From: Candidatus Nanopelagicales bacterium
GTDB taxonomy: Bacteria > Actinomycetota > Actinomycetes > S36-B12 > GCA-2699445
DNA: 41,074 nucleotides
Reading direction: 5' to 3'
NCBI GenBank assembly: GCA_030700225.1
Contig: JAUYJT010000004.1
Coordinates: 1 to 41,074 of the forward strand
Below, in pieces: positions 9,817 to 41,074 of the stretch (positions are counted from its first letter, which is position 1; each line of letters starts with the position of its first letter). Made by a program: the position numbers and the translations under genes. The notes under the pieces are model-generated. The model made no database searches, was not told the DNA's origin, and worked only from the letters and a program-made list of their open reading frames with translations.

Positions 9817-10221
9817 CTAGTCTAAGCGCGCCTCGCTGATCTTTGGGTGGCTACCGACTCGGTGACCCCGGGATGAACAACGGGGCATCCGACATCCACG
9901 ACAGCCGCGCGGCAGCTGATGCCCCGACACCGGACACCCGTATTCCAAGATCACCTCACGATTGCGACACGTGGATCACATTCAATGGTCGATGCGGGAT
10001 TCAACCGGATCCTCGGCGTTGTATCTGCAGGCTGTGAAACTGTGAGCAGGTTGCCCGCGGATCCTGCACGCCGGGCGGCGGCCGGGCGTGGATCGGACGA
10101 ATCGGACATACCGGGCGCAGCGGCTCACGGCGGAGCGGCGCGCTGCGACGTCGCACACTCCTGGCGCCCGCCTGTGCCCCGAACGAGGCTGTTCGCGGGC
10201 TACGGTGGCGGGGGAGGTCAG
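9817..10221. other. 405-bp stretch with no supported gene
   Basis: No convincing coding sequence is seen. The frame of the downstream esterase is open upstream, but the protein would gain an unconserved Arg/Ala-rich extension, and the ribosome site at 10210-10217 argues against it. An inverted repeat ggggcatc (9882-9889) / gatgcccc (9918-9925) could form a hairpin after the lipoprotein gene. The promoter of the esterase should also lie here but is not recognisable. Confidence 0.5.
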
Positions 10222-11247
10222 ATGGAACTCGGCGGTACCCACATGATCTACCGGCGTAGCGGCAAGGGAGATCTGCCGCATCAGCGGGCGGCGCAGAACG
10301 CTGCTGGTTGGGTGGGCGATCGCTTCTTCCGAGCGATCGCCAGGGCTGGTCGCCTTCACCCCCAGGCCGACCCGTCGCTGCACGGTGTGGAGGTCATCCA
10401 TGACCTTAGCTACGCGCCCCCCGGGGACCGGGAGAACTCACGGGCCCACCGGCTCGACGTCTATCGGCCAACCGGCGCGGGCGAGGGGATGCCGACCGTG
10501 CTGTACATACACGGGGGCGCGTTCCACTCGTTGTCGAAAGACACGCACTGGATCATGGGCCTTGCCTACGCGCGCCAGGGCTACCTCGTCTTCGTGATCA
10601 ACTACCGGGTGGCGCCCAGGCACAAGTTCCCGGCGGCTGCCCAAGACGTGGCGCGGGCATTCACTTGGACGGTCGAGCACGCGGCCGACTTCGGCGGGGA
10701 TCCCCGGCGGGTCGTCGTCGCTGGCGAGTCCGCGGGGGCCAACTTGGCCGCTTCGCTGACGGTCATGGCGTGCTTCGACCGGCCTGAGCCCTGGGCGGCT
10801 GACGTATCGGCCACCGGAGTGACGCCGACCGCCTGCCTGCCAGCGTGCGGCCTGCTTCAGGTGTCAGACACCGAGCGGTTCACGCGGAGGCGCAGTCTGC
10901 CGGGGTTCATTCGCAACCAGATCGTCAGGTGCGAGGCTGGCTACCTGCACGGTGCGCGCCTCGGATCCGGTGGCGTTGACCTGGCAGATCCGTTGCTTGT
11001 GCTGGAGTCGAACGAAGTCCCGACTCGCCCGCTGCCCCCGTTCTTCGCGCTGGTGGGTACCCGCGACCCTCTCCTGGATGACACGCGCCGACTCGAGGCA
11101 GCCCTTCGTGCTCGCGGCGCCGACGTCGAAGCGAAGTACTACCCTGGCGGCCTGCACGGCTTTCACGCTGTGCCGATGTTGCGTAACGCTCGGCGATCGT
11201 GGAGAGACCAGTTCGCGTTCCTCGACCGGGTCTTGGCGCGCACCTGA
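10222..11247 (+). CDS. Alpha/beta-hydrolase, hormone-sensitive-lipase family esterase
   Basis: A 341-residue esterase. ATG at 10222 has a strong ribosome site (GGGGGAGG at 10210-10217). Family IV (HSL) motifs are clear: oxyanion HGGAFH (in YIHGGAFHS), nucleophile elbow GESAGAN with the catalytic Ser, Asp in VGTRDPLLDD, and His in GGLHGFHAVP. It would hydrolyse a small carboxylic ester; the substrate is unknown. No signal peptide is visible, so it is probably cytoplasmic. It lies downstream of the RiPP locus but 400 bp away, so a link is unproven. The TGA stop lies inside a repeated hairpin element (from 11246), and a 28-bp piece of the 3' coding region (11123-11150) recurs at 13648-13675. Confidence 0.88.
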   Translation: MELGGTHMIYRRSGKGDLPHQRAAQNAAGWVGDRFFRAIARAGRLHPQADPSLHGVEVIHDLSYAPPGDRENSRAHRLDVYRPTGAGEGMPTVLYIHGGAFHSLSKDTHWIMGLAYARQGYLVFVINYRVAPRHKFPAAAQDVARAFTWTVEHAADFGGDPRRVVVAGESAGANLAASLTVMACFDRPEPWAADVSATGVTPTACLPACGLLQVSDTERFTRRRSLPGFIRNQIVRCEAGYLHGARLGSGGVDLADPLLVLESNEVPTRPLPPFFALVGTRDPLLDDTRRLEAALRARGADVEAKYYPGGLHGFHAVPMLRNARRSWRDQFAFLDRVLART

Positions 11248-11334
11248 TGCAAATCCTCTGTTGATCAAGCTCGTTCGCGATCTTCCCCGCTCACGTGATC
11301 GCGAATGTCCAAGGTCAACAGAGGATATGCATCA
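11246..11334 (+). repeat. Dispersed hairpin repeat, copy 1 (REP/MITE-like)
   Basis: The core of 70 nt (11255-11324) is bounded by CCTCTGTTGA and TCAACAGAGG, extended outward by gatgcaaat / atatgcatc (imperfect). An inner stem pairs TTCGCGATC (11274-11282) with GATCGCGAA (11297-11305). A second copy with the same core length occurs at 40937-41006. The two copies differ at stem positions in matching pairs, so the fold is preserved. It starts at the esterase stop codon and could act as its terminator. It may be a repetitive extragenic palindrome or small transposon-derived element. Confidence 0.75.
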
Positions 11335-11630
11335 TCTGGGCCGGCGCACACCGAGGCTCGGACCGACCACCTGCGTGGAAGGGATCCCAGAAGCTGACCA
11401 CTCACGATCTGCGGATCGAAGCTTGGTTCCGGGCATGCGCGCGACCCAGGTGAACTTCGACTCGAATTCAGCGATGGCAGCGTGATCGATGCCGGACCGA
11501 GCCACAGGCATGAAGCCGGGACGTCCCCGCCGACTAGCGAGTCGCCCGTAAGCTTATCCAGCGGAGCGTTCGTAACTTTCGCAACTGCGTTACAGTGAAA
11601 GGGCAAGGACATGCGAGGCAAGGAGGAGCC
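11335..11630. other. 296-bp intergenic region with promoter of the HTH/PIN operon at its right end
   Basis: No gene is supported from 11335 to about 11560. Near the right end, GTAAC (11572-11576) and GTTAC (11588-11592) form an inverted repeat around a TACAGT (11591-11596) that could be a -10 box, with a weak TTCGTA upstream. The ribosome site AGGAGGAG (11621-11628) precedes the ATG at 11631. The inverted repeat may be an operator for the HTH protein, as autoregulation is usual in toxin-antitoxin operons. Confidence 0.4.
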
Positions 11631-14452: not shown

Positions 14453-14526
14453 TAGCGGGGGCAGGATTTGAACCTGCGACCTCTGGGTTATGAGCCCAGC
14501 GAGCTACCGAACTGCTCCACCCCGCG
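14453..14526 (-). tRNA. Initiator tRNA-Met (CAT anticodon)
   Basis: The minus strand folds as a complete cloverleaf: acceptor CGCGGGG / CCCCGCT, D-arm GAGC...GCTC, anticodon arm CTGGG-CTCATAA-CCCAG, and T-arm GCAGG-TTCAAAT-CCTGC. The 1-72 position is unpaired (C-U), and three G-C pairs flank the anticodon loop. Both are initiator hallmarks. CCA is not encoded. The 3' end faces the toxin-antitoxin region, and tRNA 3' ends are common integration sites. Confidence 0.95.
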
Positions 14527-40654: not shown

Positions 40655-40748
40655 GGTCCGGGGGTAGGCGCTCGGCGTGACGGACAGGTGCGTCCTGACT
40701 GACACGCGGCGCCCGAACCGGCACTCCGCGCCACGGATCTGCCCGGAG

Positions 40749-40796
40749 TGGGGGTCCCCCTCCCCCGCAAGTAGGGGTACCCCCAACTGGGGGAGT
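40749..40796. repeat. Cluster of G/C-run palindromes
   Basis: Three nested or adjoining inverted repeats lie within 48 bp: GGGGGTCCCCC (40751-40761), GGGGTACCCC (40775-40784) and CCCCCAACTGGGGG (40781-40794). The region from 40655 to 40927 has no supported gene. Similar GC-run palindromes occur between genes in actinobacteria; this may act as a terminator for the preceding gene. Confidence 0.5.
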
Positions 40797-40927
40797 CGCT
40801 ATAGGCCGGAGATCCGCGTTCCTAACGACATCCTCGGGTCGATGCTGTCCAGGAACCTGACAAAACGGACACGTAGATCCTTCACCGGCTCGTTGCCGCC
40901 TCCGCTCGCCTCCGCAGAGGCCCCGCT

Positions 40928-41015
40928 GATGCGAATCCTCTGATGATCAAGCTCGTCAGCGATCTTCCCTTCCTGGGTGATCGTCGACCTCCATGATCAT
41001 CAGAGGAGTGTGTCC
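40928..41015 (+). repeat. Dispersed hairpin repeat, copy 2 (REP/MITE-like)
   Basis: The 70-nt core (40937-41006) runs from CCTCTGATGATCA to TGATCATCAGAGG (the stem is 14 bp perfect at 40936-40949 / 40994-41007). An inner stem pairs GTCAGCGATC with GATCGTCGAC. It is the same length as copy 1 at 11255-11324 and shares the left flank ctgatgcRaat. The right flank differs, so either the element ends here or an adjacent insertion truncates it. Confidence 0.75.
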
Positions 41016-41046
41016 TGAAAGGCGAGTGGTTGCGATGTAGGAGGTC

Positions 41047-41074
41047 GTGATTGTGGACCGTGCTGTGTTGGTGA
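41047..41074 (+). CDS. Start of a gene running off the right edge
   Basis: GTG at 41047 follows a strong AGGAGG (41039-41044) by 2 nt; a second GTG at 41053 has better spacing. Only about nine codons (VIVDRAVLV) are visible. A transposase start is conceivable given the neighbouring repeat, but this is too short to identify. Confidence 0.3.

Follow-up and report, generated by a model that had tools for sequence, protein, structure and literature searches.

The two 70-nt hairpins in the window (the whole of contig C4 of a Candidatus Nanopelagicales genome, 41,074 nucleotides) are very probably the cores of a lineage-specific, dispersed intergenic palindrome, which serves as a multicopy homing site for an endonuclease-less, IIB-type group II intron. 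The palindrome family, the insertion point, the intron with its RT/maturase, the EBS/IBS matches and the mirrored hairpins described below were all computed directly. In the mechanism that we propose, the intron RNA would recognise GATCANCAGAGGA in either arm of the hairpin through EBS2-IBS2 and EBS1-IBS1 pairing and would insert after its last A, with copy 2 of the window representing one such event. Both arms would be open to invasion, because the target is present on both strands of the palindrome. Invasion of both arms would create a giant inverted repeat, and deletion between the two domain VI stems would then leave a new short hairpin derived from the intron's own 3′ end (TGATGCAAAGGTGAGTAGCC...). 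The relevant features of the window are as follows.

11244–11336, plus strand: palindromic element copy 1, unbroken; outer arms TGATGCAAATCC/GGATATGCATCA, inner stem CCTCTGTTGATC/GGTCAACAGAGG; 97.1 bits with covariance model R1
11254–11266, minus strand: perfect intron target in the left arm of copy 1, unused
40926–41007, plus strand: palindromic element copy 2, right arm cut at the intron start; 5′ exon ending ...GATCATCAGAGGA
40936–40948, minus strand: second perfect intron target, in the left arm of copy 2, unused
40995–41007, plus strand: intron target in use (IBS2 GATCA, IBS1 AGAGGA), in the right arm of copy 2
41008–41074, plus strand: first 67 nt of the group II intron (GTGTGTCCTGAAAGG...), running past the contig end; 100% identical to the intron start at C5:12666 and on C28, C54, C59 and C60

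The hairpins belong to a dispersed palindrome family

The original prediction placed two 70-nt hairpin cores in the window, and both were confirmed by coordinates, pairing and comparison with shuffled DNA. The cores lie at 11255–11324 (copy 1) and 40937–41006 (copy 2), each 70 nt long and paired, with RNA MFE values of −50.9 kcal/mol (z −10.5) and −46.0 kcal/mol (z −6.9), respectively; for each copy, 0 of 200 shuffles were as good. The full palindrome extends beyond the core to ~93 nt (TGATGC...GCATCA, 11244–11336 in copy 1), and the stop codon (TGA, 11245–11247) of the ORF at 9919–11247 falls at the start of copy 1. In copy 2, the right arm ends at 41007 and foreign sequence follows from 41008; the group II intron that interrupts this copy had gone unremarked in the original prediction. 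Another GC-rich palindromic stretch occupies positions 40745–40800 of the window (CCCCCTCCCCCGCAAGTAGGGGTACCCCC...GGGGGAG). Similar C/G-run hairpins occur next to elements at L010 and L016; at L020 (C3:44191), one lies within the hairpin loop. The Rfam scan of the window matched only a tRNA gene (14453–14526, minus strand; RF00005, 65.2 bits), and no family at the hairpin sites.

We searched the window's own genome (2.6 Mb in 85 contigs, 95.7% complete), where further copies were first located by BLAST and a pattern search, and a covariance model was built on the 15 unbroken copies. This model detected 22 loci, rather than just the two copies of the window, and nearly all of them matched in both orientations because the two arms resemble each other. 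When genes were called by a simple codon score, almost all of 26 elements fell between genes: 11 lie between co-directional, five between convergent and four between divergent genes, five are undetermined owing to contig ends, and one overlaps a predicted frame. Outside this genome, the model matched nowhere in the family (7 further genomes) or the order (165 further genomes), and conservation of the fold in relatives, on which the original prediction had partly hinged, was not seen there. Viral contigs searched with the exact hairpin pattern and plasmids searched by BLASTN with the hairpin also gave no match.

A group II intron interrupts the palindrome at one exact point

Five hairpins, on C4 (window copy 2), C28, C54, C59 and C60, are cut at the same base, directly after CAGAGGA, by the identical sequence GTGTGTCCTGAAAGGCGAGTGG..., which in each case continues to the contig end; on C60, it is the opposite arm that is broken. 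A complete copy of this sequence without the ORF, on C5 (~710 nt from C5:12666), contains the ribozyme core of group II introns (domain V and D1–D4), with matches to RF01999 (group-II-D1D4-2, 84.8 bits) and RF00029 (Intron_gpII, 61.2 bits). The RT/maturase is encoded on C19 without stops (TIGR04416, 394.9 bits); it comprises the RVT_1 (PF00078) and GIIM (PF08388) domains and a YADD motif, lacks an endonuclease domain, and has the GsI-IIC RT as its best PDB match. A search of the order genomes at E 1e-60 found the intron RT in its own genome only.

The intron begins with GTGTG at all six 5′ junctions, as expected from the GUGYG consensus, and ends with CTCACC, that is, with CC in place of the usual AY. 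Relatives at unrelated sites end with CTCACC, CTCGAC or CTCGCC, in which the final C is conserved, and introns departing from the GUGYG..AY consensus have already been published (PMC7923331). Intron 3′ parts form the starts of contigs C19, C59, C61, C62 and C81. The 3′ flank on C19, C59, C61, C62 and C5, and not on C81, is T[TC][TC]GCATCA, the outer right half of the hairpin. Since the unbroken hairpin reads CAGAGGA/TTTGCATC, insertion at the slash costs no base if the intron ends with CTCACC. Two junctions lie outside hairpins, one 5′ (C5) and one 3′ (C81). Five contigs end within the 5′ part of the intron and others start within its 3′ part, and no contig of this fragmented assembly spans a complete ORF-bearing intron in a hairpin; the 5′ and 3′ junctions presumably belong together across each broken hairpin. 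In the window, the right half of the hairpin, TTTGCATCATC, would be expected on the far side of the intron, which is cut off at the end of C4. The intron may be active.

The ORF-less copy on C5 (L069, 1600–1670) has a non-hairpin 5′ flank (GATAGGGGA) together with the 3′ flank of the hairpin element, and these mixed flanks might stem from recombination, from another target site or from joining during assembly. Elsewhere, one and the same sequence, with a CATTAACTCAGAAGCACCTCA end, interrupts intron copies in L088 (C62; 1–150) and L091 (C66; 370–501) and resembles an IS inserted into introns. For the sequence interrupting the hairpins themselves, an IS110-like IS was considered as well, and was dropped after the Rfam group II intron matches and the RT match.

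The target in the hairpin arm matches the intron EBS loops

Using the EBS loops of the ORF-less C5 copy, we found that EBS1 (UCCUCU) pairs with AGAGGA and EBS2 ((A)UGAUC) with GATCA(U), both located in the hairpin arm. Copy 1 of the window, with a perfect target in its left arm and a right-arm target that has one mismatch, is empty of the intron. We extended the comparison to seven relatives, the intron proteins of which are 64–72% identical over the best segment and come mostly from actinobacterial MAGs. In all eight introns, the conserved GCATCGAAACC motif is flanked by two loops that match the 5′ exon: EBS1 pairs with 4–8 of the last exon nucleotides, and EBS2 with nucleotides just upstream. 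The summed pairing with the introns' own exons was 125 for EBS1, versus a permuted mean of 84.5 (p 0.0002), and 98 for EBS2, versus 75.6 (p 0.0042). The exons of the relatives showed no hairpin fold (z −1.7 to +1.2), as compared with z −5.4 to −7.5 for the occupied exons here; the intron lineage thus has no general need of a hairpin. Applied around 74 of the 80 loci with related RT/maturases, the hairpin model found no match. In the unoccupied hairpins of this genome, left-arm changes gather at the bases flanking the intron insertion point (columns 11–12 of alignment A1; TCC to TAC, GGC, TTC, TGC or GCC), for which survivorship, scars or chance could be the explanation.

Mirrored hairpins carry the intron 3′ junction in both arms

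At four loci (C30, C52, C54 and C70), we found hairpins whose sequence, apart from small changes, is TGATGCAAA/GGTGAGTAGCCGGGGGG-loop-CCCCCCGGCTACTCACC/TTTGCATCA, and which carry the exact intron/3′-exon junction in both arms. If introns occupied both arms of a palindrome, their 3′ ends would face outward, and recombination at 10-bp repeats of the domain VI stems (AGCCGGGGGG or CCCCCCGGCT) would yield exactly two products, with the loop TGCAACT or AGTTGCA. Both predicted products are present: written in one orientation, the loop is TGCAACT in one copy and AGTTGCA in three. Among these copies the arms vary and the intron-derived part hardly does, a pattern that points to separate events. We infer that the mirrored (type 2) hairpins arose by deletional collapse after introns had entered both arms. 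Fold-back template switching during the synthesis of a single intron copy, which would also result in a perfect palindrome of the intron 3′ end, is possible, if rather unlikely; it must in addition remove the rest of the left arm exactly at the target site, whereas double insertion yields this loss automatically and predicts both loop orientations.

An intact stem may be associated with intron occupancy

The 13-bp inner stem is fully paired in all five occupied hairpins, and in just one of the ten that hold no intron and have one or more perfect 13-nt targets (Fisher p 0.002, in a post hoc test with small n in which three of the occupied copies have identical arm sequences). That an intact stem favours intron occupancy is a lead, not a result. 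A bolder version of our explanation, which we offer with considerable doubt, is that a non-IIC, IIB-type intron uses two layers of recognition, EBS pairing and an intact hairpin (a cruciform or a stem at the replication fork), and that one family of repeats gives rise to another when double insertions collapse. For IIB introns, upstream structure is stated to have had no reported role (PMC7923331), and the present case makes the importance of a hairpin to an intron outside class C testable.

The intron is best read as IIB-type

Class C (IIC) introns are known from attC sites and from positions after terminators (PMC4424553). A IIC intron at such a usual site, downstream of a stem-loop, would account for the strong stem-loop directly 5′ of the insertion at five of the six known 5′ junctions, and for a maturase that has no endonuclease domain and most closely matches the GsI-IIC RT. 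This assignment is nonetheless improbable. The domain V triad, taken from the alignment of the C5 copy, is AGC rather than the CGC that some introns have. Instead of a stem-loop for IBS2 and an IBS1 of 3–4 bp, we found a 6-bp IBS1 plus a 5–6 bp IBS2, unlike IIC introns (PMC7923331), and the exons of the relatives have no stem-loop. Judged by the triad, the IBS1/IBS2 lengths and the hairpin-free sites of its relatives, the intron is best read as IIB-type, not as a typical IIC intron.

The palindrome may have originated as a MITE

A subset of the elements with shared flanks is bounded by outer terminal inverted repeats, CCTGAATCCACCG...CGGTGGATTCAGG, and such copies are ~210 bp long; many other copies are without these repeats. 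CTAA or TTAG stands on both sides, as a 4-bp duplication, in two copies only. The outer repeats and the flanking CTAA/TTAG suggest a MITE of a transposon that we take, by its likeness, to be IS5-like, and a DDE transposase may once have spread the palindromic element; the transposase responsible was not found. When the autonomous partner was sought by the terminal-repeat pattern, the examined matches were hairpin elements or solo remnants.

Multicopy, intergenic palindromes would also be expected of a RAYT-dependent REP family (HUH tyrosine transposase), in which the intron insertions were incidental, but this explanation is very improbable. The linked RAYT transposase envisaged in the original prediction was not found: the 95.7% complete genome gave a single Y1_Tnp match, an IS605-type TnpA fragment next to TnpB. 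The GT(A/G)G head carried by REPs (PMC2817692) is missing beside the palindrome on inspection of alignment A1, and the copy number is only 22. At 1344–2865 of L094 (G000:C48:15500-18500), the TnpA fragment of a degraded IS605-type element overlaps a TnpB-like frame.

The original prediction further described a compensatory stem change, took the structure to be kept while the sequence drifts, and proposed a REP/MITE-like element or a structured RNA. The compensatory change is present in the two window copies (T-A versus A-T), but this column pair is intact in 8 of the 15 unbroken copies and broken in 7. Over the same 15 copies, covariation is weak, with a modest excess over column shuffles (score 0.151 versus 0.127; 92.4% versus 91.0% paired). 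The palindrome itself is real, and this excess argues only faintly for RNA-fold selection as the cause of its kept structure. The REP/MITE-like half of the proposal agrees with a dispersed intergenic palindrome of 22 copies; the structured-RNA half does not agree with the absence from the 165 other genomes of the order and the lack of an Rfam match at these sites. A conserved structured RNA or bidirectional terminator selected for its fold is hardly credible, since the very stable fold and the several copies between convergent genes are set against weak covariation with a key pair broken in nearly half of the copies, four copies between divergent genes and no occurrence in the order relatives.

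Comparison with known systems

This case joins bacterial palindromic repeats with group II introns, which are usually treated separately. Through a palindrome that recurs across the genome, a retroelement guided by RNA gains numerous safe sites between genes on either strand. Where it inserts twice, new hairpins can remain, which gives hairpin families a concrete way to arise.

The copies with outer inverted repeats CCTGAATCCACCG/CGGTGGATTCAGG may resemble MITEs of IS5-like elements, and differ in that no autonomous partner was found here and that many copies are missing the outer repeats. With RAYT/REPIN systems (PMC2817692), the family shares dispersed palindromes between genes, but it comes without a RAYT or a GT(A/G)G head, and its hairpin is longer and its copies few. 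Like the IIC introns at terminators and attC (PMC4424553, PMC7923331), the present intron is En-minus and inserts beside a stem-loop; unlike them, it has an AGC triad and a 6-bp IBS1 with IBS2, it targets one repeat family instead of terminators, and its relatives use hairpin-free sites.

IS elements of the IS110 and IS3 families (ISPsy8, ISPpu9, IS621) are known to strike REPs at one exact point, and two of the nine group II introns of P. putida KT2440 are REP-associated (PMC1525189). What is new here, on our best reading, is an IIB-type intron for which a dispersed palindrome is the standard homing site. As with REPs as IS110/IS3-family targets (PMC1525189), a mobile element enters a dispersed intergenic palindrome at one exact point; in the present case, that element is a group II intron, and RNA pairing guides it.
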